Origin: Koleobacter methoxysyntrophicus
GTDB taxonomy: Bacteria; Bacillota; Thermosediminibacteria; Koleobacterales; Koleobacteraceae
Assembly (NCBI RefSeq): GCF_017301615.1
Contig: NZ_CP059066.1
Span: forward strand, 2,492,888-2,556,887
Reading direction: 5' to 3'
DNA: 64,000 nucleotides
The notes beneath the pieces are model-generated. The model saw only the letters and a list, made by a program, of their open reading frames with translations. It had not been told where the DNA came from and made no database searches. Below, in pieces: positions 32,327 through 53,380 of this stretch (position 1 is its first letter; each line of letters begins with the position of its first letter). Position numbers and translations under genes: made by a program.

Positions 32327-32366
32327 AAAAAAAATTTAATATTAATGCCTCATCTCTTAAATGAGG

Positions 32367-32623
32367 TGAGGTAGAGGCGCGATTAACAAAGAGTATTTTT
32401 GGTTAGGGAGGGAAGCCCAATGATCCAAAAAGAAAGGTGTTGTCGCCGAAGTGTAAATGATGATTCCCCATCATTTATGCTGGGCCTATATCGAAGAGGT
32501 ATAGGACTGTCACCAGGGATTTTGCCCTGAATTCCTGGTGGAGCGCTATCTCACTAATAGGGTAGAGGGGGGGTATTTGTGTCGTTTTTTAAACGACTAG
32601 CAAATACTTGTTAGTCGTTTTTT
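32367..32623 (+). ncRNA. Lysine riboswitch (L box) with expression platform
   Basis: The aptamer spans 32367-32553. P1 pairs TGAGGTAG (32367-32374) with CTATCTCA (32546-32553). Conserved L-box sequences are visible: GAGGTAGAGGCGC, AAGAGTA, GGGAGGGAAG, AAGGTGTTGTCGCCGAAG and GGAGCGCTATC. Downstream, GTATTTG (32573) with GTCGTTT can pair with AAACGAC and CAAATAC (32601-32607) as an antiterminator; the competing terminator is at 32591-32623. Lysine binding should favour the terminator and switch off lysA, as known for this class. Confidence 0.95.
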
Positions 32624-32665: not shown

Positions 32666-34003
32666 ATGGAATTTCCAGGAACTATGAAAATAAATGAAAA
32701 AAATCACCTTGAAATCGGTGGCTGCGATTGTGTTGAACTGGCTAAAACATTCGGGACTCCTCTTTTTGTTATGGATGAAACACTCATAAGGCAAAACTGC
32801 CGTTCATATATTAATAGCCTTGAAAAACATTATCAAAACAGTGAAGTTATCTATGCTAGTAAGGCTTTTAGTTCACTAGCATTATATAAAATTATCGAAG
32901 AAGAAGGATTAGGCTTGGATGTGGTATCAGGCGGAGAAATCTTTATGGCACTAGAGGCTGGGTTTCCACCTGAAAAAATATATTTTCACGGTAATAATAA
33001 ATCTTATGATGAACTGAAGTTGGCTTTAGAATCGGGTATAACAAAAATAATTGTAGATAATTTTTTGGAATTGGATATGCTGAATGAATTATGCAGAGAG
33101 ATGCATAAAAATGTAAATATTCTGCTGAGAATAACTCCCGGTATCGAGGCTCATACTCATCACTATATAAGAACAGGTCAAATCGATTCGAAATTTGGAT
33201 TTCCTCTCGAAAACGGTCAGGGCTTTTTGGCCGTTGAAAAGGTTTTAAAAATGAAGAGGTTTCGTTTTGCAGGCCTTCACTGTCACATAGGTTCTCAAAT
33301 ATTTGATAAAGAACCTTTTGAACACACTGTTTCAACAATGATGGATTTTATAAGGCAAATAAAAGACAGATATAATACAGATGTAAAGGTTCTGAATTTG
33401 GGTGGAGGGTTTGGTATAAAGTATATAGATACTGATAAACCCAGACATGTAGAAGATTATATAGAAGCTATCACTAAAAAAGTAAATTTTTATAGTAAAA
33501 AATACAATTTAGTTCCACCTAAAATCATGTTAGAACCTGGAAGGGCCATTGTAGGGGATGCCTGCATAACCCTTTATACAATTGGTGCAATTAAAGACAT
33601 TCCGGGAATCAGGAAGTATGTAAGTGTAGATGGGGGTATGACTGATAATATAAGACCTGCTCTATATCAAGCAAAATATCATGCTATGATTGCTAATAAC
33701 TGTAAAGCAGAAAAGAAAGAGCTTGTATCTATAGCAGGGAAATGTTGTGAATCAGGAGATATGCTTATTTGGGATATTGAATTACCCAAGGTTTCACCCG
33801 GGGATTATCTAGCTGTTTTTTCTACCGGAGCTTATCATTATTCTATGTCGAGCAACTATAACAAAATACCGCGGCCTGCTGTAGTGCTTGTAAGTGAAGG
33901 ACAGGCAGAGATAATTATAAAAAGGGAAACCTATAAGGACTTAGTAAAAAATGACGTTATTCCAAAAAGGTTAAAAAACAAATCAACTTACTTAGCCCTG
34001 TAA
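32666..34003 (+). CDS. lysA: Diaminopimelate decarboxylase
   Basis: This encodes 445 residues of the fold-type-III PLP decarboxylases. PLP lysine is in 'VIYASKAFSS', with 'GLHCHIGSQIF', 'LNLGGGFGIKY', 'EPGRAIVGDAC' and active-site Cys in 'AGKCCESGDML'. It converts meso-diaminopimelate to lysine. The preceding lysine riboswitch confirms the assignment. The ATG at 32666 has AAGGAG 10 bp upstream. No other lysine genes lie nearby; lysA is a single-gene unit closed by a terminator. Confidence 0.97.
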   Translation: MEFPGTMKINEKNHLEIGGCDCVELAKTFGTPLFVMDETLIRQNCRSYINSLEKHYQNSEVIYASKAFSSLALYKIIEEEGLGLDVVSGGEIFMALEAGFPPEKIYFHGNNKSYDELKLALESGITKIIVDNFLELDMLNELCREMHKNVNILLRITPGIEAHTHHYIRTGQIDSKFGFPLENGQGFLAVEKVLKMKRFRFAGLHCHIGSQIFDKEPFEHTVSTMMDFIRQIKDRYNTDVKVLNLGGGFGIKYIDTDKPRHVEDYIEAITKKVNFYSKKYNLVPPKIMLEPGRAIVGDACITLYTIGAIKDIPGIRKYVSVDGGMTDNIRPALYQAKYHAMIANNCKAEKKELVSIAGKCCESGDMLIWDIELPKVSPGDYLAVFSTGAYHYSMSSNYNKIPRPAVVLVSEGQAEIIIKRETYKDLVKNDVIPKRLKNKSTYLAL

Positions 34004-41760: not shown

Positions 41761-41775
41761 CTCATCAATGATGAG
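41761..41775 (+). promoter_or_regulatory. 15-bp dyad (candidate operator), copy 1
   Basis: CTCATCAATGATGAG is a perfect 6-bp inverted repeat with a 3-bp centre, 11 bp before the start of the first gene of the B12 cluster. It recurs as CTCATCTATGATGAG at 47180-47194. A role as operator for the regulator encoded at 46413 is inferred. Confidence 0.55.
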
Positions 41776-41786
41776 GAGGTGATTTT

Positions 41787-42224
41787 TTGGGTAGAGATCC
41801 TTATAAGATGAAAATGTTTGAAAAAGATCCGTATGCTAAAAAAACGGAAATTATCGGGGAATTAGTAGTGGTACTAGATGGTACTTTTGATAATAGGGGT
41901 TTAGAATTGATTATTCCTGCATCAAGATGCCTCCAGAGAAGTGAGATTCATGAGTTAATTTTAACAGATGAAGATTCTGGGCCCGGAAGTAAGGTTAATA
42001 AAATAGCCTATATAGGATTTTTCGAAGTTAAACAAGGTGGTGTAATACTAAAAGGAGATAAAGTCTTTATAGGGAATCAATATATTGGTGAAGTTACCGG
42101 ATATGACGAAACCCATATGCCCAATCATTTAAATATTGTTATTTTCGGTAAACCGAGGATTTCGGGTTTGGAAAGAGGTTTGGAGCTAAGAGATAAAGTA
42201 ATTATAAAAAAAGAAAAAGAATAA
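41787..42224 (+). CDS. Conserved protein of unknown function (DUF6917-like)
   Basis: This encodes 145 residues, soluble, beta-rich. Notable segments are 'IIGELVVVLDGTFDNRGLEL', 'SRCLQRSEIHELILTDEDSG', 'GDKVFIGNQYIGEVTGYDE' and 'PNHLNIVIFGKPRISGLERG'. I believe it belongs to the family labelled DUF6917 but cannot confirm this and know no function. The start is TTG 41787 after GGAGGTGAT. It is the first gene of the B12/PLP cluster, directly downstream of operator copy 1. This suggests a structural or substrate-handling role in that pathway. Confidence 0.6.
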   Translation: MGRDPYKMKMFEKDPYAKKTEIIGELVVVLDGTFDNRGLELIIPASRCLQRSEIHELILTDEDSGPGSKVNKIAYIGFFEVKQGGVILKGDKVFIGNQYIGEVTGYDETHMPNHLNIVIFGKPRISGLERGLELRDKVIIKKEKE

Positions 42225-42314
42225 TAAACGAATTAGATATGAGAATTAAACAATTTGCTGTGGAAAAAATATAGTTAGAAAATATTTTCAGCAGCAATGA
42301 AAGGGGGTGCTAAA

Positions 42315-42776
42315 ATGTCCTTTGAAAAAAAAATAAAAGAAATGGGTATTAATATACCAGAAGCTCCGAAACCTGTAGCAGCATACGTTTCCGCAGTTAA
42401 AATCGATAATTACATTTATACTGCCGGACAAATCCCTTTTGTAGACGGGGAGTTAAAATATAAAGGAAAACTAGGTAAAGACCTTTCAATAGAAGAGGGT
42501 TATGAAGCCGCAAAGATTTGTGCAATTAACTGTTTAGGTGCAATTAAATCTTTAATAGGCAGTCTTGATAATATAGAAAGGGTCGTTAAGGTTACCGGTT
42601 TTGTAAACAGTGCAGGAGGTTTTAACCAACAACCAAAGGTGGTGAATGGAGCTTCTGAATTTTTAGGTCAGGTTTTTGGTGAAACAGGCAGTCACGCCAG
42701 ATCGGCAGTAGGAGTTAATGAACTGCCTATGGATGCCGCCGTAGAAATTGAGATGATTGTAAAAGTAAAAGATTAA
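42315..42776 (+). CDS. Rid family (YjgF/RidA-like) enamine/imine deaminase
   Basis: This encodes 153 residues. 'IYTAGQIPFVDGELKYKGKL' and 'GSHARSAVGVNELPMDAAVE' match the longer Rid subfamily; the Arg (in HARSAV) and the final Glu (in VEIE) that bind the substrate carboxylate and activate water are kept. Rid proteins hydrolyse reactive imines released by PLP or flavin enzymes. Its place beside a PLP enzyme and FAD oxidoreductases suggests it clears or channels an imine made by them. I chose ATG 42315, after AAAGGGGG. Confidence 0.85.
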   Translation: MSFEKKIKEMGINIPEAPKPVAAYVSAVKIDNYIYTAGQIPFVDGELKYKGKLGKDLSIEEGYEAAKICAINCLGAIKSLIGSLDNIERVVKVTGFVNSAGGFNQQPKVVNGASEFLGQVFGETGSHARSAVGVNELPMDAAVEIEMIVKVKD

Positions 42777-42797
42777 TTTTTAAAGGAGGAGATTTTT

Positions 42798-44264
42798 ATG
42801 GCAAAGTTTAAATTAAAGTATCAAATGTATAAATCCTTACAAGAGAACATACCAAATATTTATGCTGAAGCTAGAAAAGCAGCAGAAGAACTAGGAATAC
42901 CGGCTGAATTAAAAGGCAAGTTTGGGTTAACGGGAGCTATTTCAGGTTGTCCTGCTCCTCTTAGGAAAGATATTCTCGAATACTCAGAAAAAGGTGGAAA
43001 AGAAGTTATACCCCTTGCGAAGCTTGTTGAGGAGATAAGGGGTCTTGTAAAGGAAGTATATGGCGATGAGTATGATGCTGCACCTGTTAACACATGCGAA
43101 GCAGGTTTGTGGGTTACCTTTGATACCCTTTTTACACCTCCGATGCAAGGTAGGGGTGACAACTATCAAGCAAGATATATAGCTTTATATGAAAAACATT
43201 TACACCATCAAGGAGGATATGGCAGACCTTTCCCACCAAGATTTAAGGATATTCTGGCAGATAGAGGGTCAACTGCGGGAGAGTTAGGTTTCTATGGTAA
43301 AAGACAGAACAATTTGAGTGTATATTACGCACCTTTAGAAGGAGCTTGTTACGATGTGCATGGAATCAAGTATCACCCGGTTCCCCTTTTAACAAAAGTA
43401 GATCCAGAAGCATCGGGTGAAAAAATCTCACTAATCGCAGAAAGGAACGCTACTATTTTGACGGGTATTACTTCTCTAGGCTATGATACACCGGGTTATG
43501 GATATGGAGTAAAGGATGAAGATGGAACACCTGTGATGCAGAAAATTTTAGCAAATATAGCAAAAGATTTTGATGTCCCCTATGTTGTAGATAATGCCTG
43601 GGGAGTTCCTTTTATAGGTCATGATATCAGAAAATCCGGGGCCGATGTAGTTATTTATAGCATGGATAAGGCCTCAGGTGCAACAACTAGCGGTTTGATT
43701 ATCGGCAAAGAGGAAGTAATGGTTCCCATTAGGAGAGCGTTAGGTATGCATGGTGACAGATGGGGAACAACAGCTTCCTATGGAAAGGCAGCATACGTAA
43801 CGCAGGACCCCGGTAAAGAAGCCTTATTGGGGCAAGTAGCTGCATTAAAAGCATTAAAAGATAAACCCGAAATATTAACTAAACCCGTTGATGACCTTTA
43901 TAAAATAGTAAAAGAAGAATTTGATCAAATTCATCCAAAAATTAAAGAAGGGCTAATAATCACAAAATCTTATAATTCAACGGCTGTTGAAGTTAACTAT
44001 GAAAATACATGGAAAAATGGAGAATTAGGATTCCCAATTTTCTCAATTGAAGATATGTATGCCGGAACAAATATACTCCAATCGGGAATGGGTCAAATGG
44101 GGGTCATTCCAACCATTGCTTATGATGCAAATATCTATATTTCACCCGGCCTTGGTACTACCGATGAAAATGGTCAATTGATTGAAGATAGGGCGCGTTA
44201 TTGTATAAAGGCTTTGGTAAAACTTATGGAAATTGTAGGAAAGTACAGCGGGTATCTAGATTAA
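42798..44264 (+). CDS. Fold-type-I PLP-dependent enzyme, substrate unknown
   Basis: This encodes 488 residues. The PLP pocket is visible: D265 in 'VPYVVDNAWGVPF' (pyridine N partner) and K291 in 'IYSMDKASGATTSG' (Schiff base). The long N-terminal part (1-200) is rich in Gly, His and Cys ('LTGAISGCPAPLRK', 'NTCEAGLWVTFDTLF', 'HHQGGYGRPFPPRF'). It does not look like a common aminotransferase, SelA, tryptophanase or Cys/Met lyase I can recall. It starts 21 bp after the Rid gene, with AAAGGAGGAG upstream, so the two are coupled. A lyase, racemase or aminotransferase role is possible. Confidence 0.72.
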   Translation: MAKFKLKYQMYKSLQENIPNIYAEARKAAEELGIPAELKGKFGLTGAISGCPAPLRKDILEYSEKGGKEVIPLAKLVEEIRGLVKEVYGDEYDAAPVNTCEAGLWVTFDTLFTPPMQGRGDNYQARYIALYEKHLHHQGGYGRPFPPRFKDILADRGSTAGELGFYGKRQNNLSVYYAPLEGACYDVHGIKYHPVPLLTKVDPEASGEKISLIAERNATILTGITSLGYDTPGYGYGVKDEDGTPVMQKILANIAKDFDVPYVVDNAWGVPFIGHDIRKSGADVVIYSMDKASGATTSGLIIGKEEVMVPIRRALGMHGDRWGTTASYGKAAYVTQDPGKEALLGQVAALKALKDKPEILTKPVDDLYKIVKEEFDQIHPKIKEGLIITKSYNSTAVEVNYENTWKNGELGFPIFSIEDMYAGTNILQSGMGQMGVIPTIAYDANIYISPGLGTTDENGQLIEDRARYCIKALVKLMEIVGKYSGYLD

Positions 44265-44407
44265 ATTAATCTAAATAAAAGGTGCAGCCGAAGCGATACT
44301 TAATAATTGAATGCTTATCGTATCTAGATCAAAGGGGGGATCCCTCCCCTTTAATTGTAAACTATACCCTAAAGGTTCAAAATAATATAAGGAGGTGCCT
44401 ATACAAG

Positions 44408-45688
44408 GTGGCAAAAGCAGTTGTTATCGGTGGCGGATGGTCGGGTTGTGCTGCCGCTCTCGCCTCAGCTAAGATGGGATGTGATGTGATTCTGCTAGAA
44501 AGGACTGATATGCTGCTTGGCACAGGGTTGGTTGGCGGGATAATGAGAAATAACGGAAGATTTACTGCTACTGAAGAAATGATTGCCATGGGCGGTGGAG
44601 AATTATTTGAAATCGCTGATTCAGTAGCAAGACATAAAAATATTGAATTCCCCGGTCATAAACATGCCACCCTTTATGATGTAGCTAAAATTGAACCTGC
44701 AGTTAAAAAGCTTTTAATTGACAGAGGAATCGATGTTCGTCTTATAACAAGGGCAAAGGATGTAAAAATGAACGGAAATAGAATCGTATCTGTATTAACT
44801 GATGAAGGAGATGAAATAGAAGGTGATATTTTTATAGAAACTACAGGGACGGCAGGGCCTATGGGTAACTGTTCGAAATATGGAAATGGATGTGCAATGT
44901 GTATAATTCGCTGCCCCAGTTATGGGCCAAGGGTCAGTATTGCAGCAAAAGCCGGAGTAAAAGAGTTGATGGCCAAAAAATCAGATGGTTCTGTTGGTGC
45001 AATGAGCGGATCCTGTAAATTATTGAAAGAATCCCTTTCCGATGATATTGTAGAAAAATTAAATACCAGGGGGGTAGCAGTTATCCCCATACCTCAAGAA
45101 TTGCAAAAAGCCGATGCTTTGAGTCAGAAAGCTTGTCAGCAGTATGCATTAAAAGAATTTGCCGAAAATGTTATTCTCCTTGATACTGGACATGCAAAAT
45201 TAATGAGTCCATATTATCCGTTAGACAAATTACGAAGGATTCCGGGATTTGAAAATGCCAGATACGAAGATCCCTATGCAGGAAACCTGGGGAATTCTAT
45301 GAGATACTTCTCTATTTCTCCCAGAAATAATAAACTTCAAACCGAAGGTGTTGACAACCTGTTATGTGCAGGGGAAAAAGCAGGTCCTCTGGTAGGTCAC
45401 ACTGAGGCGATTGTTACAGGCACCCTTGCCGGTTATAATGCAGCTAGATTGGCCTTTGGAAAAGAACCCGTGGAAATACCGGTTGAACTGGCAGTTGGTG
45501 ATGCGATTTCTCATGTTAGAGAACAGATGAACACCCCAGAGGGAATTGCTAAGAAATATACATTCTCCGGGTCAGTATATTTTGAAAGAATGAAGGAAAA
45601 GGGCTTATATACTACAGATATAAATGAAATAAAGAAACGAGTTGAAAAAGCCGGTATGACAAACTTCTTTGAAAAAAAATTCATTTAA
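44408..45688 (+). CDS. FAD-dependent oxidoreductase with Fe-S motif (copy A)
   Basis: This encodes about 426 residues. FAD binding is by 'VVIGGGWSGCAAALASAKMG' and 'LLERTDMLLGTGLVGGI' at the N-terminus and 'GEKAGPLVGHTEAIVTG' near the C-terminus. A central cysteine group, 'GNCSKYGNGCAMCIIRCPSY', suggests a 4Fe-4S cluster. The family resembles the FAD_oxidored group. A longer in-frame start at 44282 is rejected: GTG 44408 follows GGAGGTG. A paralogue with the same motifs is at 52109. It likely oxidises an amino or hydroxy acid of the pathway; the substrate is unknown. Confidence 0.8.
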   Translation: MAKAVVIGGGWSGCAAALASAKMGCDVILLERTDMLLGTGLVGGIMRNNGRFTATEEMIAMGGGELFEIADSVARHKNIEFPGHKHATLYDVAKIEPAVKKLLIDRGIDVRLITRAKDVKMNGNRIVSVLTDEGDEIEGDIFIETTGTAGPMGNCSKYGNGCAMCIIRCPSYGPRVSIAAKAGVKELMAKKSDGSVGAMSGSCKLLKESLSDDIVEKLNTRGVAVIPIPQELQKADALSQKACQQYALKEFAENVILLDTGHAKLMSPYYPLDKLRRIPGFENARYEDPYAGNLGNSMRYFSISPRNNKLQTEGVDNLLCAGEKAGPLVGHTEAIVTGTLAGYNAARLAFGKEPVEIPVELAVGDAISHVREQMNTPEGIAKKYTFSGSVYFERMKEKGLYTTDINEIKKRVEKAGMTNFFEKKFI

Positions 45689-45701
45689 AACCATAAAAAT
45701 G

Positions 45702-45728
45702 GGTAGTAGTTATCTACTACCTTTCTTT
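45702..45728 (+). terminator. Intrinsic terminator after FAD oxidoreductase copy A
   Basis: GGTAGTAG / CTACTACC with a 4-nt loop is followed by TTTCTTT. Confidence 0.75.
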
Positions 45729-45752
45729 AGGTTGTTCCAAATCTGACACTAT

Positions 45753-45799
45753 CTCCTTCATGCTTGAATAATATAAGATATATATCAAGTTTGAAGGAG
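45753..45799 (+). promoter_or_regulatory. Hairpin covering the ribosome binding site of the 45811 gene
   Basis: CTCCTTC (45753-45759) pairs with GAAGGAG (45793-45799) and CTTGA with TCAAG inside it, separated by 3-nt internal loops. The right arm is the Shine-Dalgarno sequence of the next gene. Confidence 0.45.
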
Positions 45800-45810
45800 G
45801 TATATTATAT

Positions 45811-46299
45811 ATGATCATAGAAAAACTATGGGATTGTAGGTGTTTAAATAAAGAAGAAAACTGTCCGTGTATCTTGGCCGTGCTTAATACTTGCCCTTAC
45901 TGCGATTTTTTAAAAGGCAATGAATTATGCAACTGTAATTGGGAAGGGTATTGCCCATTATTAAAATTAAAGTGGGAGGACATAAAAGACCTAAGCCGGG
46001 GTGATAACCGGCTTGAAATATTAAAAAAGGTATTCATCTCAAAAAATTGTCTAATGGTTGTCGTGAAAATACCCGAATTAAGTAATTTAGATATAAACCC
46101 TGGTAATTCTATAAATATTTATGGTGAAAAAGACGGCATGTTATATGAATTAAAGGGAATTGTTTTAAATTCTCTGGTACCGTACAGTACTATTGCAATA
46201 GGTTTTGACGTAAGCAATCCCAATAATAGAATTATTTTAGACAATTTTTGTATTAAATCTTTTAAAAAAAAGAACCTTAACTGGATAAAAATAGATTGA
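45811..46299 (+). CDS. Cysteine-rich, truncated PyrK-like protein (copy A)
   Basis: This encodes 162 residues. The N-terminal 60 residues hold ten cysteines ('CRCLNKEENCPCILAVLNTC', 'CNCNWEGYCPLL') in the same spacing as the 51139 product. The rest (70-160) resembles only the flavin-binding beta-barrel of that protein; the NAD-binding domain and the C-terminal 2Fe-2S motif are missing. There is no sign of a frameshift, so it may be a short electron carrier rather than a broken gene. It follows FAD oxidoreductase copy A. Confidence 0.65.
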   Translation: MIIEKLWDCRCLNKEENCPCILAVLNTCPYCDFLKGNELCNCNWEGYCPLLKLKWEDIKDLSRGDNRLEILKKVFISKNCLMVVVKIPELSNLDINPGNSINIYGEKDGMLYELKGIVLNSLVPYSTIAIGFDVSNPNNRIILDNFCIKSFKKKNLNWIKID

Positions 46300-46412
46300 G
46301 AATTTTTGAAAATGCAAAAAAATGCGATAAGAAAACCTTTTTTATATTAATATGATGTTATATAATATAAATAAATATCAAAAATAAAAATAGAATTACC
46401 AGGAGGAATCAA

Positions 46413-47156
46413 ATGGAACAATTAAAAGGGAATCAGGAATATTATACTTTAAAGATAATCGGGGATTCTTTATCACCCATTGGTTCAGGATTGATAAGTG
46501 AAGAATTAAAATCATTGGGATTCAATATTAGTGAAGCTACGGTTGGTAGAATTTTAAGGGAGCTAGATATAAAAGGTTACACTGAAAAGGTAGGATTCAG
46601 GGGGAGGATTTTGACCGAGAAGGGCAAAGAAAAGCTTAAGACTATAGAACAGGAAAACGAAATAAAGCAGTATGGTAATGAGTTTATCAATCTACTTAAA
46701 GTAAGCAGAAAAGATGAACTGCTGGATATTCTAGTTGCCCGTAGAGCTATTGAAAGGGAGTTGGCGAGATTAGCGGCCATAAATGCAAAAGAAGCTGACA
46801 TTGAGGCCTTAGAAAAAATCGTTCAATCCCACGAAAGACATTTTGAAAACTTCATTACAGGAGCAAAGGACGATGTAGATTTTCATAAATTGATTGCCAA
46901 AATGGCAAAAAACAGGATCTTAGATGCTGCAATGGATTTAATCAGGCAGCACGGACAGCTTTCACCGGTTTTAGGCTACATTAGGAAAGAAGTTAAGAGC
47001 ACTGTTGTCTCAGACCATAAGAAAATATTAGAAGCAATAGCAAAAAGAGACCCTGATAAGGCAGAAAGGGCTATGGTGAGACATATAGAAAATCTCATTC
47101 AAGACGTAAATAGATACTGGGAAATTGCTGAATCTTATAATGATAAAAACGTTTAA
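46413..47156 (+). CDS. Transcriptional regulator: NrpR/HTH_12-type winged helix + FCD domain
   Basis: This encodes 247 residues. The N-terminus (1-75) 'LKIIGDSLSPIGSGLISEEL' with 'ISEATVGRILRELDIKGYTE' resembles the winged helix of NrpR and RNase R-type regulators rather than a GntR helix. The C-terminal part (95-240), with 'LVARRAIERELARLAA', 'DVDFHKLIAKMAKNRIL' and 'VSDHKKILEAIAKRDPDKAE', is an FCD ligand domain with its metal-binding Asp/His residues. It is the likely regulator of the surrounding cluster and a candidate binder of the CTCATC dyads at 41761 and 47180. Confidence 0.78.
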   Translation: MEQLKGNQEYYTLKIIGDSLSPIGSGLISEELKSLGFNISEATVGRILRELDIKGYTEKVGFRGRILTEKGKEKLKTIEQENEIKQYGNEFINLLKVSRKDELLDILVARRAIERELARLAAINAKEADIEALEKIVQSHERHFENFITGAKDDVDFHKLIAKMAKNRILDAAMDLIRQHGQLSPVLGYIRKEVKSTVVSDHKKILEAIAKRDPDKAERAMVRHIENLIQDVNRYWEIAESYNDKNV

Positions 47157-47179
47157 ACATATTTTTTTAATACGTTCTA

Positions 47180-47194
47180 CTCATCTATGATGAG
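47180..47194 (+). promoter_or_regulatory. 15-bp dyad (candidate operator), copy 2
   Basis: CTCATCTATGATGAG differs from copy 1 (41761) only at one central base. It lies between the regulator gene and the mutase genes, 18 bp before the latter. Confidence 0.55.
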
Positions 47195-47212
47195 CAAAGG
47201 AGGGATAAAATT

Positions 47213-47458
47213 ATGAAAGATATATTGGAGAAGGTATTAGATGCTATTGATATGGAAACCTTTTTAATATGCAGAGATGAAGATGAAGGCAAGGGTTTGA
47301 TGCTTAAGTTAATGGAACAGTTGGGGTTTAAAGATACAAATATAGTTTTTATCGAACACAACGGTCCCGGGGCAAGGATTAGAGCCAGAGGATATATATA
47401 TAAACCCGGTGATAGTTATGGCTGGCTTAAAACAGATGAAGGGAGGAACGGCCAGTGA
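47213..47458 (+). CDS. Small subunit of a cobalamin-dependent aminomutase-like enzyme
   Basis: This encodes 81 residues. 'EGKGLMLKLMEQLGFKDTNI' and 'GPGARIRARGYIY' resemble the small alpha/beta dimerisation domain that precedes the B12 domain in OraE and KamE (pattern: helix, 'KKMGL..', then 'G.R....G.V'). Here that domain is a separate polypeptide. It overlaps the large subunit by 4 bp, so the two are translationally coupled. It is not similar to OraS. The assignment is inference from weak similarity and context. Confidence 0.55.
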   Translation: MKDILEKVLDAIDMETFLICRDEDEGKGLMLKLMEQLGFKDTNIVFIEHNGPGARIRARGYIYKPGDSYGWLKTDEGRNGQ

Positions 47459-49266
47459 AGAAAAAGGTTTTATTAGTACCTCTTGATCCCGTTCATGACA
47501 TTGGTCTTAAAATGATCAAGAGAGGCCTCGAAGAAGCAGGCCATAATGTGATTTTATTGCCACCTGATTATTCGCTGGAAGAAATAATTAACAGGATAAT
47601 CGAAACCAGGGTAGATACAGTTTTGATAAGCAGAACCCTCGGCTATGGAGTTGCAGAACTATTAGGCAGGTTTATAGACTTGGCTGATGCTGCAGGATTA
47701 AGGGACAAGGTAACCTTTGGAATCGGCGGTATGGCAATTACTCCAGAGCTGGCTGCTGAATTGGGTTTTGATGCTGGATTTGGGCCGGGAACTACAGTAG
47801 AAGAAGCCGTTGCCTTTGTAGAAGGAAGGGAATATGTCCCCGATAAGCAGCGTAATAAAAAGATTAAAAAAGACATGACCCAAAACTATGATTACAATTA
47901 CAAAAATGCAAGGATAGCTGAGTTACTAAATAAAATATCCCAGCAGATCCTGCACTGGGGAGAAGATAAAACATCTCCCGGAATTTTGAGGGCCCATATT
48001 AGGGAAAGAATATTGAACTCCCGTGATGAAAAAGAAGTTAAAGAATTAAAGCAGGAATATATGTCTTTTTGTGATGAGGCAGTTAAAAGTTTTTATTCAA
48101 AAGGGGAACTTAACAGCAAGACACGTTCTTTAACTCAAAGGGAAGTAAAAGCCCTAGAAGAATATGTAAAAGATGTTGAAGAACGAATGACCCTTAATAT
48201 AATTCAAAAAACAGAAAAAAACCCTTTGATATTCATTCAGTATGGAACAGGTTGCCCGTTTATGGATATAGCCCATATTAAACTTGCTGAGTCATGGGGA
48301 GCTGATGGGGTTGTCCACTTTGACCCTTCATGGGGAGCAAGAACAGAAGGCTTTTATGAGGGTTTTTTAAGCCATGAAGAGGACGGCTCGGTTATTACTT
48401 ATGAAAATCTCTCTAAAATAAAAGAATGTTTAAACAGGAATATCCTCTGGCAAGTGCGAGCTCACAGGGGAGTAAATACCCCGGAAACAGTAGTGCTTGC
48501 CGGTAACGCCGGAGCAGATTTAACGAAAATAAATATAGTTTATGGTTCTTTAGGGGGGGGGACTGATCCTGCCCGATTGACCATTGATGCTCTGGAAGCT
48601 ATAAAAATAGCAGCTAAATATAATCTACCTTTTGATGTGGTTACCAATGAAGAATTAAGCGGTGTTCCATCATACAAAGCCTTTGCCGGCATGCTTATTG
48701 TAGCTAACCTAGCCTTAGTTTTGGGAGCAAAACCTATTTTACAGCCATTATTCTGTTATTCACCCGAGGTTATGATCGGACGTCAAATGGAAGATAATTA
48801 TATTGATTTTAATGCAGCAAAAATTTATGCGTTGAGAAGTATAATTAATGCACCCATTTGGCCAGGAGCACCTATAGGGTTTTTAACCCATACTGAAGAT
48901 AGGGTTCAATCTTCGGTAACAACGGCGTTACATGCCGGTTTAGCTTCATCATTAAAGGTAGATGCCATTTCAATAGCATCTTCTGATGAAGCTTTTTCAG
49001 GGGGGCCTATAACAGGGGCATCAAGAATTGACACATTGAGAGCTACCCAGGAAGTTTTTAGATTCTTCGGTCATGCGGAAATTTCTCCGACAAACAAAGC
49101 CCAGGAATGGGCTGACGAATTGGTCGAAAGGATAGAAAAGGTATTAGTAGACGTTCTAAATAGAGGTGATTTTGTTCAGGCCTTATATGACGGTATTCTT
49201 GGCAATAGAGAAGAGGGGGCTTATCCTGGAAGGGCTGGTAGGAATACAATAATAAGAAAAAAATAG
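47455..49266 (+). CDS. Cobalamin-dependent aminomutase-like large subunit with N-terminal B12 domain
   Basis: This encodes 603 residues. The B12 domain (1-130) has D11-x-H14-x-x-G17, then S59, then GG at 91-92: the base-off/His-on pattern. 'DAGFGPGTT' recalls OraE. A helical linker (135-240) leads to a barrel (240-570) with 'SWGADGVVHFDPSWGARTEG', 'GSLGGGTDPARLTIDALEAI' and 'SSDEAFSGGPITGASRIDTL', aligning with the OraE/KamD barrel. In OraE the B12 domain is C-terminal. The PLP-binding lysine 11 residues after the B12 histidine in OraE/KamE is L25 here; K19 and K22 are nearby. The substrate is unknown. The start is GTG 47455. Confidence 0.72.
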   Translation: MKKKVLLVPLDPVHDIGLKMIKRGLEEAGHNVILLPPDYSLEEIINRIIETRVDTVLISRTLGYGVAELLGRFIDLADAAGLRDKVTFGIGGMAITPELAAELGFDAGFGPGTTVEEAVAFVEGREYVPDKQRNKKIKKDMTQNYDYNYKNARIAELLNKISQQILHWGEDKTSPGILRAHIRERILNSRDEKEVKELKQEYMSFCDEAVKSFYSKGELNSKTRSLTQREVKALEEYVKDVEERMTLNIIQKTEKNPLIFIQYGTGCPFMDIAHIKLAESWGADGVVHFDPSWGARTEGFYEGFLSHEEDGSVITYENLSKIKECLNRNILWQVRAHRGVNTPETVVLAGNAGADLTKINIVYGSLGGGTDPARLTIDALEAIKIAAKYNLPFDVVTNEELSGVPSYKAFAGMLIVANLALVLGAKPILQPLFCYSPEVMIGRQMEDNYIDFNAAKIYALRSIINAPIWPGAPIGFLTHTEDRVQSSVTTALHAGLASSLKVDAISIASSDEAFSGGPITGASRIDTLRATQEVFRFFGHAEISPTNKAQEWADELVERIEKVLVDVLNRGDFVQALYDGILGNREEGAYPGRAGRNTIIRKK

Positions 49267-49277
49267 GTGAAGAGACA

Positions 49278-50345
49278 ATGGTAAAAATTATTGGAATTGC
49301 AGGAACTGCAAAAAATACCGGTAAAACCACTACTACCACGGCTTTAATAGAAGAAATAAATAAAAGGGGTATGAATATCGGTATAACCAGTATCGGTTAT
49401 GATGGGGAAGAAATAGACAATGTTACAGGCTTGCCGAAACCGAGGATTAGGTTAAGGCAGGGTACTTTAGTGGCTATTTCTGAAAAATGTTTGAAAACAA
49501 GCAGTGCTGAAATTAAAATAATTGAAAAAACCAACCTTATTACACCCCTAGGTAAAATAATTGTCGGTAAAATCGTAGAGGATGGGCTGGTAGTGCTAGC
49601 AGGGCCAAATAAATCCAGGGATCTGAAAACAATAAACTGTATTTTAAAAGAAAAAAACTGCAATTTTATTATTGTTGATGGGGCTCTTAATAGATTGGCT
49701 CCCATGGTAGAAACTCATGGGATTATCCTTGCCACCGGTGCTGCCAGAAATCATGATATAAACTTACTGGCACGGGAGACAAAGGCAATAATAAATATCT
49801 TTGAATTAAACAAAATAGATAAAGCATTAAAAGATGTTAAATCTATCGTATTGCAAACCCGCAATAAGGGTATTAAGAGACTGAATTCCACTTCACTTAT
49901 AACTAAGGAAACAGCATCAGAAATCATCAATTATTATAATCAAACTGATAAAGTCGAATTTGTATATATTCCCGGAATAGTATCTGCAGAAATTCTTGAA
50001 GAGTTCATTGATAAAACAGCAAAAATTATTAGAGGCACAACAATAGTTTTAACAGACCCAATAAAACTTCTGGTTAGCGGTAATCCAATTCACATTAATA
50101 ATTTGATTGAAAAAGTCAGAACCCTAGGGGGCGATTTTGCTGTTACTAAAAATATTCCGGTTTTATGTGTTACCATAAACCCCTTTTATCCGGCCTATCG
50201 ATTTAATCATGAGACGTATTTTCCCGATTATGTTGATGCCGACATGTTAAAAAGAACAATGGAGAAATATATTGACATCCCTGTGATTAATGTTGTAAAA
50301 GAAGGTGCAGAAAAAATATTTAGTATTATTAAACAAGGAGGATAA
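49278..50345 (+). CDS. P-loop protein, probable mutase reactivase (KamB-like)
   Basis: This encodes 355 residues. Walker A is 'GIAGTAKNTGKTTTTTAL' near residue 10. 'NFIIVDGALNRLAPMVETHG' is a Walker B-like region. The C-terminal half is alpha/beta with no clear motif. As I recall, lysine 5,6-aminomutase needs an ATP-dependent reactivase (KamB with KamC) to remove damaged cobalamin; this protein resembles the KamB type. No KamC-like (MutS-like) partner is seen here. It begins 11 bp after the mutase gene. Confidence 0.65.
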   Translation: MVKIIGIAGTAKNTGKTTTTTALIEEINKRGMNIGITSIGYDGEEIDNVTGLPKPRIRLRQGTLVAISEKCLKTSSAEIKIIEKTNLITPLGKIIVGKIVEDGLVVLAGPNKSRDLKTINCILKEKNCNFIIVDGALNRLAPMVETHGIILATGAARNHDINLLARETKAIINIFELNKIDKALKDVKSIVLQTRNKGIKRLNSTSLITKETASEIINYYNQTDKVEFVYIPGIVSAEILEEFIDKTAKIIRGTTIVLTDPIKLLVSGNPIHINNLIEKVRTLGGDFAVTKNIPVLCVTINPFYPAYRFNHETYFPDYVDADMLKRTMEKYIDIPVINVVKEGAEKIFSIIKQGG

Positions 50346-50347
50346 TT

Positions 50348-51037
50348 ATGGAAACCATTGCAATAATCGGGACCGGTAGGATGGGAAGTTTAATAGCCAG
50401 AAAAATTAAAGATAAATACAGAATTTTACTGGTAGATAAAGATATAAGACGGTGTGGTAATTTAGCTAAGGATATCCATTCTATCGCTACAGGGAATTTA
50501 GAAGTGATTAAAGATGCCGATTATATTATTTTAGCATTACCCGATAGAGTTATTCGAGATATCTTACCAAATATTAATTCCTTTTTAAAGGGCCATCAAA
50601 TTGTAATAAATATTTCAACTTCTACAATGAAAAAAGACTTGCTGGATAAAATTAATTATAGACAAAACCTGATTAGTGTCAAGATAATCGGTCATTATGA
50701 AGAAATAAATTTGGGAGAAATACCACTAATAATAATCGAAGAAACTGCAAAAGATGAAATTAAAACAAAAATGATCGAGATATTTTCAAATATCGGTATT
50801 GTTTTATTCGGAAAAGAAGAAGATGTAGAAAAAGTAAATACCATTGCAGGGGAAGAAGCTATAAAAGCAGCGATAAATATAAAAAAAAGACTAATGGAAC
50901 AGAACATTAAGCAAGAGTATTGGAGTATTGCTATAAGAAATGTAGCTTCAGGGACCATGAAAGCCTTTTCATCAGGTGATATCGGGCCTTTTGCAAAAAG
51001 AGTGGTAGAAGAATTAGAGAAAAAAAATAGCTTATAA
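50348..51037 (+). CDS. NAD(P)-binding Rossmann protein (ProC/TyrA-like)
   Basis: This encodes 229 residues. The dinucleotide motif is 'IAIIGTGRMGSLIARKIKDK', followed by 'ADYIILALPDRVIRDILPNI'. The C-terminal helical part (150-229) is short. It resembles the pyrroline-5-carboxylate reductase/6-phosphogluconate dehydrogenase superfamily. In the cluster it could reduce an imine or oxidise an amino-acid intermediate. It starts 2 bp after the reactivase gene and is the last gene before a terminator. Confidence 0.7.
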   Translation: METIAIIGTGRMGSLIARKIKDKYRILLVDKDIRRCGNLAKDIHSIATGNLEVIKDADYIILALPDRVIRDILPNINSFLKGHQIVINISTSTMKKDLLDKINYRQNLISVKIIGHYEEINLGEIPLIIIEETAKDEIKTKMIEIFSNIGIVLFGKEEDVEKVNTIAGEEAIKAAINIKKRLMEQNIKQEYWSIAIRNVASGTMKAFSSGDIGPFAKRVVEELEKKNSL

Positions 51038-51045
51038 AATCAAAG

Positions 51046-51070
51046 AAAGAGGGGACATTCCCCTCTTTTT
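51046..51070 (+). terminator. Intrinsic terminator after the mutase operon
   Basis: AAGAGGGGA / TCCCCTCTT with a 3-4-nt loop is followed by TTTC. Confidence 0.8.
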
Positions 51071-51138
51071 CACATTGTATTATTAAATATCATAAAATAA
51101 ATATATATTACCATTAAAATAGAGGGGAATGAAGTTCG

Positions 51139-52116
51139 ATGCTGCTTAATATTAAATGCATAGATGTCGGAACAAACTACTGCCCGTGTTATCTGGCGGA
51201 AATAGGCAATTGCCTGGTATGTTCTCATTTAAACGGGAAAGGGTGCGGAGATTGCAACTGGCAGGGGATATGTATTATGAATGATTTCTACTGGAATGGT
51301 AAAAGATCCGCGGAAGGACGAACAATCATAAGGACTGAAGAAGTATCAAAGAAGTTGATAGCAGATAATCTACTTTTATTGTCTGCCCAAATCCCTTCTC
51401 ATAAAGTAAAAGACTTTGTTCACCCCGGAACTTTTGTTTTTATAAAAAATGATAGTTTTCCAGACTTCTATGATGTTCCTACTTCAGTGATGGATGTTGA
51501 TGAAAAAAAACATATTCTACATTTTGCAATACAAATAGTCGGTCCCAAAACAAAAGCCCTATTAAAAGAAGAAAAGAAGATAACAATTAGGGGACCGTAC
51601 TGGAACGGAATATACGGAATAGAACATATAAAAACTCTAGAAAACGGCTACGTATTGATTATTACAAGGGGAATTTGTCAGGCTTCCGCTTTGCTCTTAA
51701 TAAAAAAACTGATTAATAACGATAATAAAGTTAAGGTATATATAGATCCGGGAAGTTTAGGAAGAATCTTCATAGGGGATTCCTTAAAAGAACTCGGTAT
51801 AACCGCTATAAAAACAGATATTACGAAAAAGGAAAAATTAAACGAAATCAAATCGGATATAGAAAATCAACCTTTCGACCTTATATACAGCGGTGGTGGA
51901 GACTTGCAGCATCTAATTATATTTAAAATAATAAAAGAAACGAAAAAAGAAGTACCCCTTATTGCAAGCAATAACAATCAAATATATTGCGGTGAAGGGA
52001 TTTGCGGAAGCTGTGCTGTGGAAAACTCTAAAGAAACCCATAGAGAAAGAATTTATTTGTGTAAGGCTCAGTTTGATTATACTACTTATGTGCAAAGGGG
52101 GTTTTATAATGGCTAA
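51139..52116 (+). CDS. Cysteine-rich PyrK-like FAD/NAD oxidoreductase (copy B)
   Basis: This encodes 325 residues. An N-terminal cysteine module (1-55: 'NYCPCYLAEIGNCLVC', 'CGDCNWQGIC') precedes a ferredoxin-reductase-like flavin barrel, an NAD domain, and a C-terminal 2Fe-2S motif 'CGEGICGSCAV' with a last Cys in 'YLCKAQF', as in PyrK. It could pass electrons between NAD(H) and the FAD oxidoreductase encoded next, with which it overlaps by 8 bp. The N-terminal module is shared only with the 45811 product in this window. Confidence 0.78.
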   Translation: MLLNIKCIDVGTNYCPCYLAEIGNCLVCSHLNGKGCGDCNWQGICIMNDFYWNGKRSAEGRTIIRTEEVSKKLIADNLLLLSAQIPSHKVKDFVHPGTFVFIKNDSFPDFYDVPTSVMDVDEKKHILHFAIQIVGPKTKALLKEEKKITIRGPYWNGIYGIEHIKTLENGYVLIITRGICQASALLLIKKLINNDNKVKVYIDPGSLGRIFIGDSLKELGITAIKTDITKKEKLNEIKSDIENQPFDLIYSGGGDLQHLIIFKIIKETKKEVPLIASNNNQIYCGEGICGSCAVENSKETHRERIYLCKAQFDYTTYVQRGFYNG

Positions 52117-53380
52117 GGTGATTATTATCGGGGGAGGTTGGGCCGGATGTGCTGCAGCAATTACGGCAATAAAAAATAAGGCAGAGGTAGTATTAATTGA
52201 AAAAACCGATATGTTATTAGGTTGTGGCCTTGTTGGGGGAATTATGAGAAATAACGGGAGGTTCACTGCCACAGAGGAAGCGATTATAATGGGAGCAGGA
52301 GAACTATTTGAACTAGCAGATTCATTATCCCGACACAAGAATATAGATTTTCCCGGGCATTCGCATGCCAGCCTTTATGATGTTTTAAAAATTGAACCTA
52401 CAGTTAGAAACTTATTGGTTAAAAAGGGAGTAAATATATTATTTGAAACCAGGGCAGTAGATGTAGAAATGGATAAAAACAAGATAACAGGGATTCTTAT
52501 ATCCGATGATAGGCTGATAAAAGGAGATGTATTTATTGAAACCACCGGTTCTTCAGGCCCTATGGGGAATTGTTTAAAATACGGCAATGGATGTGCTATG
52601 TGCATCCAGAGGTGTCCCGCATACGGCCCAAGGGTCAGTATTAGCGAGAAAGCCGGGGGTAAGGACGTGATAGGGAAAAGAAGTTCAGATAGTTTTGGAG
52701 CGATGAGCGGTTCCTGTAAACTCAATAAAGATTCCCTGGGTGAAGAGATACGAAATAAATTAAACAAAGAAGGGGTAGTTATAATACCTTTAGATAAAAA
52801 GAACATAAACAAGCAAAAGCTATCAATGAAAGTGTGTCAACAATATGCCATTAATGAGTATGCAGAAAATCTAATTCTTTTGGATACAGGGCATGCGAAA
52901 TTAATGACTTCATACCATTCCTTAGCTGCATTAAGGAATATTAAGGGTTTTGAAAATGTTAGATATGAAGACCCTTATGCGGGAAGCAAAGGAAATTCCA
53001 TCAGGTATATGTCTATGGCATTAAGGGATAATACCATGAAAGTTGATGGTATCCCAAACCTCTTCTGTGCAGGTGAAAAATCAGGCCCCTTTGTGGGTCA
53101 TACCGAAGCTATTGTAACAGGTTCACTTGCCGGGTATAATAGTATTAGGTACCTGTACGGGGAAAAAACCCTGGAATTACCCAGGACAACTGCAATAGGA
53201 GATATCATAGCATATGTAAATGAACAGATGCGAACAGATAGTGGTTTATGTAACAGATATACCTTTGCAGGAGCTTTATATTTTGAAAGAATGAAGAAAT
53301 TGAATTTATATACTACCAATTTAGACGTGATAAAAGATAGGGTTTATAAAGAAGGCTTAATCGATGTTTTTATGTGTTAA
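52109..53380 (+). CDS. FAD-dependent oxidoreductase with Fe-S motif (copy B)
   Basis: This encodes 423 residues, closely similar throughout to copy A at 44408: 'VIIIGGGWAGCAAAITAIKN', 'DMLLGCGLVGGIMRNNGRFT', 'CLKYGNGCAMCIQRCPAYGP' and 'GAMSGSCKL' are shared almost unchanged. The frame extends upstream to 51962, but ATG 52109 has AAAGGGGG before it and matches the start of copy A. It is coupled to the PyrK-like gene, so the pair probably forms one complex. Confidence 0.82.
   Translation: MAKVIIIGGGWAGCAAAITAIKNKAEVVLIEKTDMLLGCGLVGGIMRNNGRFTATEEAIIMGAGELFELADSLSRHKNIDFPGHSHASLYDVLKIEPTVRNLLVKKGVNILFETRAVDVEMDKNKITGILISDDRLIKGDVFIETTGSSGPMGNCLKYGNGCAMCIQRCPAYGPRVSISEKAGGKDVIGKRSSDSFGAMSGSCKLNKDSLGEEIRNKLNKEGVVIIPLDKKNINKQKLSMKVCQQYAINEYAENLILLDTGHAKLMTSYHSLAALRNIKGFENVRYEDPYAGSKGNSIRYMSMALRDNTMKVDGIPNLFCAGEKSGPFVGHTEAIVTGSLAGYNSIRYLYGEKTLELPRTTAIGDIIAYVNEQMRTDSGLCNRYTFAGALYFERMKKLNLYTTNLDVIKDRVYKEGLIDVFMC

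Follow-up and report, generated by a model that had tools for sequence, protein, structure and literature searches.

A conserved putative adenosylcobalamin-mutase module, most likely of amino-acid metabolism, in Koleobacter methoxysyntrophicus

A gene cluster of Koleobacter methoxysyntrophicus that combines a cobalamin-dependent mutase with a pyridoxal 5'-phosphate (PLP) enzyme, an imine deaminase and several redox proteins raises the question whether these genes form one functional unit, and which metabolism such a unit would serve. The window, i.e. the whole stretch of DNA analyzed here, comprises 64,000 nucleotides (G000:C1:2492888-2556887) of a 3.10 Mb genome present as a single contig; coordinates refer to the window unless stated otherwise. 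The cluster (41787-53380) consists of 12 genes, all on the + strand, between DacF upstream and RluB downstream, a placement also common to close relatives. Its best overall explanation is a conserved adenosylcobalamin (AdoCbl)-mutase module for the metabolism, most likely the breakdown, of an amino acid, to which we assign a probability of roughly 0.6. The established part of this explanation comprises the core genes, their co-inheritance, the superfamily membership of the mutase and the loss of its canonical PLP site.

The core consists of the mutase genes S81 and B12mut, a PLP enzyme, a DUF6917 protein, a KamB-like reactivase and, usually, a protein of the Rid family. B12mut (47455-49266, 603 residues), the core enzyme, matches the B12-binding family PF02310 with 59.7 bits (cut-off 32.1). 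Directly upstream lies S81 (47213-47458), a putative small mutase subunit of 81 residues with no family match, whose gene overlaps that of B12mut by 4 bases; the split cobalamin mutase described in the initial annotation is this pair. The P-loop protein of 355 residues at 49278-50345, the probable mutase reactivase, was rightly likened to reactivases, as it passes the NCBIfam KamB reactivase model NF052386 (249 bits, cut-off 210). The fold-type-I PLP enzyme (42798-44264, 488 residues) has an invariant D265 and K291 and stays under every curated family cut-off. The DUF6917 protein (41787-42224, 145 residues; PF21891, 165.8 bits, cut-off 27) had been left out when ten genes were counted instead of 12, and is a strict companion of the mutase. 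Gene order, strand, motifs and the DacF and RluB flanks were otherwise found as first described.

Co-occurrence was examined in 300 genomes drawn across the phylum Bacillota. A full-length mutase (48-78% identical) is present in 28 of them (~9%). These 28 and no others have DUF6917; the PLP enzyme is found in all of them and in one further genome (G050; hence 28 of 29). Hypergeometric p values for co-occurrence with the mutase, with relatedness ignored, are ~1e-39 for DUF6917 and ~1e-38 for the PLP enzyme. The 28 genomes represent 25 genera and many families, and several have sister genomes that lack mutase, PLP enzyme and DUF6917. The KamB-like protein is encoded somewhere in 28/28 of these genomes and in 8/9 others. 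The proposal of a co-inherited B12-dependent module is borne out by these counts.

Gene neighbourhoods were compared in the best 79 distinct named loci (80 with the window), many of them cut by contig ends. They include Tepidanaerobacter, Sporomusa, Heliobacterium, Desulfosporosinus, Desulfotomaculum, Paenibacillus, Atribacteria, Thermotogota, Treponema and Ca. Adiutrix. Gene order is shuffled between loci, and since the neighbourhoods differ in Thermotogota and Atribacteria, which have the set as well, we regard the module as a functional unit. Among the 80 loci S81 and the PLP enzyme occur in 68 each, the KamB-like protein in 62, DUF6917 in 55, the FAD proteins in 54 (paralogues counted together), the regulator in 51 and Rid in 39; a permease-like family (c8, ~460 residues) is found in 24. 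At its smallest, the local unit comprises regulator, S81, mutase and PLP enzyme. Genes that are missing locally are mostly encoded elsewhere: of 20 genomes examined starting from their loci, 19 have the PLP enzyme; in Thermotogota the PLP enzyme is in the same operon as the mutase. The idea that all genes of the cluster form one set stood for the core only: the small NAD(P)-binding protein (8/80 loci) and the pair of full-length PyrK-like protein and FAD2 (6/80) are lineage-specific additions, and 91 of the 300 genomes, among them 27 of the 28 with the mutase, have a member of the FAD protein family. FAD1 was accordingly rejected as a module-specific marker. In Peptococcaceae (L114, L116, L124, L129) and Heliobacteria (L094, L101, L128) the module adjoins the mre/PBP2/RodA wall-elongation operon.

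B12mut is a member of the lysine 5,6-/ornithine 4,5-aminomutase superfamily, a placement on which profile and structure comparison agree. Residues 1-125 form the B12-binding domain, which is followed by an aminomutase-type TIM barrel; a Pfam scan matched the former and not the latter. The predicted structure (mean predicted local distance difference test score, pLDDT, 84.5) has as its best Foldseek match 1xrs_A, the alpha subunit of lysine 5,6-aminomutase (LAM), at E 4.1e-16, and next 3kp0_A, ornithine 4,5-aminomutase (OAM), at E 2.7e-10. With hhalign the Rossmann domain aligns to KamE at E 6.6e-21 and the barrel to KamD at E 6.5e-6 (428 columns, probability 85%), while the match of S81 to the N-terminus of KamE is weaker (E 2.2e-5, probability 76%). 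S81 is the probable counterpart of the LAM beta dimerisation domain, so that all three LAM domains appear to have counterparts here, the dimerisation link being the more weakly supported. The order is [S81] + [Rossmann-barrel], as against [barrel] + [dimerisation-Rossmann] in LAM, and the mutase is a new branch and a new architecture of a known enzyme superfamily. D11 and H14 are invariant in 109/109 mutase sequences, in the spacing D-x-x-H-x-x-G of the lower-ligand histidine motif. A natural fusion of S81 and B12mut in L098/L099 (frames of 702 and 653 residues) was considered and rejected, as the N-termini are unlike S81.

The PLP of LAM is attached to K144 in the Rossmann domain, and its contacts are R184, G187-Q188-S189, S238, Y263, R268 and N299 (PMC3958899). 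The corresponding positions were compared in the 109 mutase sequences through profile alignments at ~21% identity, with no ligand-bound model. The loop bearing the Schiff-base lysine (K144 beta / K629) is deleted, being 8 residues shorter than in KamE; its length is identical in 109/109 sequences and an insertion occurs there in 0/109. Contacts are replaced in nearly all sequences, R184 by D, G187-Q188-S189 by W-G-A and R268 by A or G, and S238 is an invariant arginine in the mutase family. Only two contacts are kept: Y363 (= Y263) in 109/109 and N398, the O3' asparagine, matched through the alignment with OraE, in 108/109. As aligned, the canonical PLP site is lost in the mutase family, and the mutase is by this evidence either free of PLP or equipped with a relocated site. 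The analogy to PLP/B12 aminomutases that had been drawn for the mechanism thus fails at the lysine loop and at the phosphate-binding residues. R296, R335, H337, R338, K358, E399 and E400 of the pocket are invariant or near-invariant, and we infer, by analogy to glutamate mutase, that the enzyme may hold its substrate directly through carboxylate-binding residues without PLP. A more specific form of this reading, in which a third branch of the superfamily has given up PLP, works as an AdoCbl radical mutase on an amino acid of D configuration or with two carboxyl groups (for instance one related to diaminopimelate, from cell walls) and feeds a new PLP ammonia-lyase, is put forward tentatively, as possible rather than probable.

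The relocated site is the substance of the strongest competing explanation, in which the enzyme needs both PLP and AdoCbl, acts as an aminomutase on another diamino acid and has a rebuilt PLP site; K358, on a strand of the barrel, would serve as Schiff-base lysine and the Gly-rich loop 364-369 as phosphate binder. Fold and superfamily are those of the PLP aminomutases, the PLP-stacking tyrosine and the O3' asparagine are the two contacts kept, K358 and G369 are invariant, and N360 is found in 105 of the 109 sequences. The deleted lysine loop and the replaced phosphate contacts speak against it, as does the fact that we know of no precedent in the family for moving both the lysine and the phosphate site. 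We consider a rebuilt site doubtful, yet deserving of serious attention.

For the substrate, the best lead comes from the additional genes of other phyla. The Thermotogota loci examined share, with small variations, the order YheO-PAS regulator, Rid, DUF6917, PLP enzyme, FAD1, permease-like protein, DapF-like epimerase, S81, mutase and KamB-like protein (in three of them no frame was called for Rid and DUF6917). The DapF-like gene is part of every Thermotogota operon examined; some add a diaminopimelate-dehydrogenase-like protein (296.8 bits, cut-off 180.6), an oxidase of the DAO type that has Fe-S partners, and a TRAP importer. Atribacteria loci carry many of the same elements, and in one case a lysine operon contains a DapF of its own, the biosynthetic one. 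Because of the epimerase and the dehydrogenase-like enzyme, the Thermotogota operons hint at a D-configured or diaminopimelate-like amino acid as substrate; diaminopimelate itself is not concluded. Amino-acid metabolism as such is what we infer from the Rid, PLP, racemase and dehydrogenase partners. Neither the window nor 14 relatives showed a riboswitch close to the cluster. A lysine riboswitch (RF00168, 135.3 bits) is located at 32364-32556, directly 5' of a diaminopimelate-decarboxylase-like (LysA-like) gene (32666-34003), and apparently represents ordinary lysine control.

The same genes could also be read in the opposite direction, with the mutase making an unusual amino acid such as a wall or secondary-metabolite building block. 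Minimal units without redox genes lie beside mre/PBP2/RodA in several Peptococcaceae, the module of Heliobacteria has the same neighbours, and the cluster of the window follows behind DacF. However, mre/PBP2/RodA and DacF are housekeeping loci that occur without the module too; the module has its own regulator, often also the permease-like gene (24/80 loci) or importers of the TRAP or Opp type, and its Rid, DAO and FAD partners are typical of catabolism. A biosynthetic role is therefore regarded as unlikely.

Could the mutase be an ordinary lysine or ornithine aminomutase with its standard pathway genes elsewhere? Its B12 domain does resemble that family, with 50.8 bits against NF052385 and 41.3 bits against NF040743, but these scores are far under the cut-offs of 280 and 800; there was no match to the alpha subunit model, and a PF09043 search does not detect B12mut. 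The genuine pathways have loci of their own in the same genome: Ord, OrtA, OrtB, OraE and Or-4 at ~523 kb (L190, G000:C1 516000-531000) and Kdd, KamB, KamC, KamD, KamE and Kce at ~1.0 Mb (L191, G000:C1 996500-1011500). Most of these genes score above curated cut-offs, and both pathways are complete or nearly so. The KamB linked to LAM reaches 397.6 bits, which makes the KamB-like protein of the module a paralogue. Ord/OrtA/OrtB, OraS and Kdd/Kce are absent from the cluster, as is KamC, the MutS-like ATPase. Half of the 28 mutase genomes in the phylum sample, 14 in all, gave no match to the KamD/OraE family and thus have neither aminomutase, and 22 of the 28 have no KamC over the cut-off (6 do), so the module stands alone. 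The identity of the mutase with LAM or OAM is rejected at the level of sequence, the ordinary-enzyme explanation has become very improbable, and the expectation that the route differs from ornithine and lysine fermentation is confirmed.

A chance neighbourhood of unrelated genes, for which one might cite the lineage-specific PyrK/FAD2 pair and NAD(P) protein, is rejected by the three-way genome-wide co-occurrence of mutase, DUF6917 and PLP enzyme and by their recurrence in different synteny, and is hardly credible.

Several points nevertheless weigh against a catabolic module with a PLP-free mutase. The reading of the PLP site depends on the distant alignments mentioned above, and K358 with the Gly-rich loop 364-369 is a candidate for a relocated site. 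Some relatives (L083, L084, L114-L129) carry locally only regulator, S81, mutase and PLP enzyme, so that the redox genes are not obligatory neighbours. There is one clear exception to the core: Paenibacillus sp. P25 (L135) keeps DUF6917, S81 and B12mut, and neither the PLP enzyme nor the KamB-like protein was found anywhere in its genome. The catabolic direction is suggested by the partner genes only. The DapF-like epimerase is absent from the window, and it may act on something other than diaminopimelate: in the module proteins (L130, L134 and L202-L207 of Thermotogota; L108, L136) the catalytic motifs are kept, but the motif that reads GNPH in the biosynthetic DapF aligned with them is GVPH, a V-for-N exchange that possibly reflects a separate specificity.

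The route that we propose on this basis would run as follows. S81 and B12mut would form one mutase, in which the three LAM domains are reordered, the dimerisation piece stands alone and the Rossmann domain is fused ahead of the barrel. AdoCbl would bind with His14 as lower ligand, and the 5'-deoxyadenosyl radical would rearrange the substrate with no external aldimine on PLP. The substrate would be held directly by R296, R335, H337, R338, D290 and N398-E399-E400, which would have replaced the PLP pocket, and the KamB-like protein would reactivate the mutase. The PLP enzyme, near-obligate in the module, would take over the rearranged amino acid and probably convert it by elimination or cleavage into an enamine or imine, as its closest relatives in fold and its association with Rid suggest; Rid would then hydrolyse the product. 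FAD1 and its PyrK-like partner would carry electrons from an oxidative step, and DUF6917 is presumed to be an obligate part of the module.

Of the companion proteins, the PLP enzyme is predicted to have fold type I (AlphaFold pLDDT 84.7). Its best Foldseek matches are SelA, Cap15, SepCysS and SHMT at a TM-score of ~0.5; similarity to DgaE is weak (34.8 bits, cut-off 385), sequence similarity to enzymes of the methionine-gamma-lyase type is weak as well, and solved structures give weak matches only. It is a separate family of its own with no close relative. Paralogues away from the mutase (L181, L182, L183; G258, G282) are located among other catabolic genes, in L181 and L183 beside Rid though no mutase is present at the locus. 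This placement and the comparisons are suggestive of an elimination in which an enamine or imine is set free. The Rid family imine/enamine deaminase (42297-42776, 159 residues; PF14588, 79.2 bits, cut-off 35; PF01042, 69.7 bits, cut-off 27.3) reaches 57 bits against TIGR00004 (cut-off 106) and thus does not belong to the classical RidA subfamily; in Thermotogota the same place is held by another Rid subfamily, 33% identical. No relative of DUF6917 was found among solved structures. For the permease-like family c8 (e.g. L069:7241-8626) no transporter family scored above cut-off, and one member shows weak similarity to CitMHS.

The remaining genes of the cluster are regulatory or redox genes. 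The transcriptional regulator (46413-47156, 247 residues) belongs to the FCD family (PF07729, 87.4 bits, cut-off 24.3; PF08461, 53.8 bits, cut-off 21.4). FAD1 (44282-45688; PF01134, 129 bits, cut-off 22.1), a GidA-like FAD oxidoreductase with CxxCxxxC whose true start is probably near 44405, adjoins a short, Cys-rich PyrK-like electron-transfer protein (45811-46299, 162 residues; NF004470, E 2.7e-13), which aligns to positions 13-138 of 330 of the model and lacks the C-terminal part. The accessory genes begin with a small NAD(P)-binding protein resembling P5CR and F420-oxidoreductases (50348-51037, 229 residues; PF03807, 42.1 bits, cut-off 21.6), followed by a full-length PyrK-like FAD/NAD electron-transfer protein (51139-52116, 325 residues; NF004470, 336.6 bits, cut-off 313) and, adjoining it, FAD2 (52109-53380), a second GidA-like FAD oxidoreductase, 60% identical to FAD1, with the start taken at MAKVIIIGG. 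Two FAD/Fe-S oxidoreductases with PyrK-like partners had been announced: the FAD proteins and both partners are present, one partner in the short form only, and the putative Fe-S character amounts to the conserved cysteine pattern.

No description of the mutase module was found in a search of the open-access literature, and as far as that search shows the module appears to be undescribed. It probably marks a route of amino-acid metabolism not yet described. Only a small number of rearrangements depend on AdoCbl, and nearly every known one stands for an entire fermentation route; the presence in ~9% of the sampled Bacillota of a family tied to an unassigned PLP enzyme and to DUF6917 points to a route missing from annotation. 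DUF6917 gains its first functional context. If the barrel works without PLP, the reason why aminomutases require the cofactor could be tested on a natural example, and the PLP-free branch would, with DUF6917, represent a new anaerobic amino-acid degradation pathway over several phyla.

Among known systems, D-amino-acid operons with a DAO-type dehydrogenase, Rid and a YheO-like-PAS regulator resemble the Thermotogota and Atribacteria modules, which carry the YheO-like-PAS regulator and Rid and in some cases a DAO-type oxidase with Fe-S partner subunits; the window lacks those parts or has them in another form, and to our knowledge the known D-amino-acid catabolic operons contain no B12 mutase. 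With SelA- and DgaE-like enzymes (D-glucosaminate-6-phosphate ammonia-lyase, Cap15) the PLP enzyme shares fold type I and a weak similarity around the PLP lysine, while the DgaE score and the TM-score given above set it apart. Glutamate mutase is an AdoCbl mutase without PLP in which arginines bind the carboxylates directly, and ammonia loss then follows in the methylaspartate pathway. The likeness to it, PLP-free and with direct Arg-carboxylate binding, serves as a working model only; the model of its B12-binding subunit alone scores, and the barrel of the module matches LAM and OAM best, not glutamate mutase E. D-ornithine 4,5-aminomutase (OraSE) shares the superfamily, the C-terminal barrel motif and the conserved asparagine (N226/N398); in OraE the Rossmann domain follows the barrel, whereas in the module it precedes it, and OraS, Ord and OrtAB are not part of the cluster. 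LAM (KamDE with KamB/KamC) differs in domain order and subunit partition, and the module has neither its PLP lysine loop nor most PLP-phosphate contacts, KamC or Kdd/Kce. LAM is nevertheless the best structural match, with barrel, Rossmann domain and probably a dimerisation-like piece in common and a KamB-like gene adjoining the mutase.

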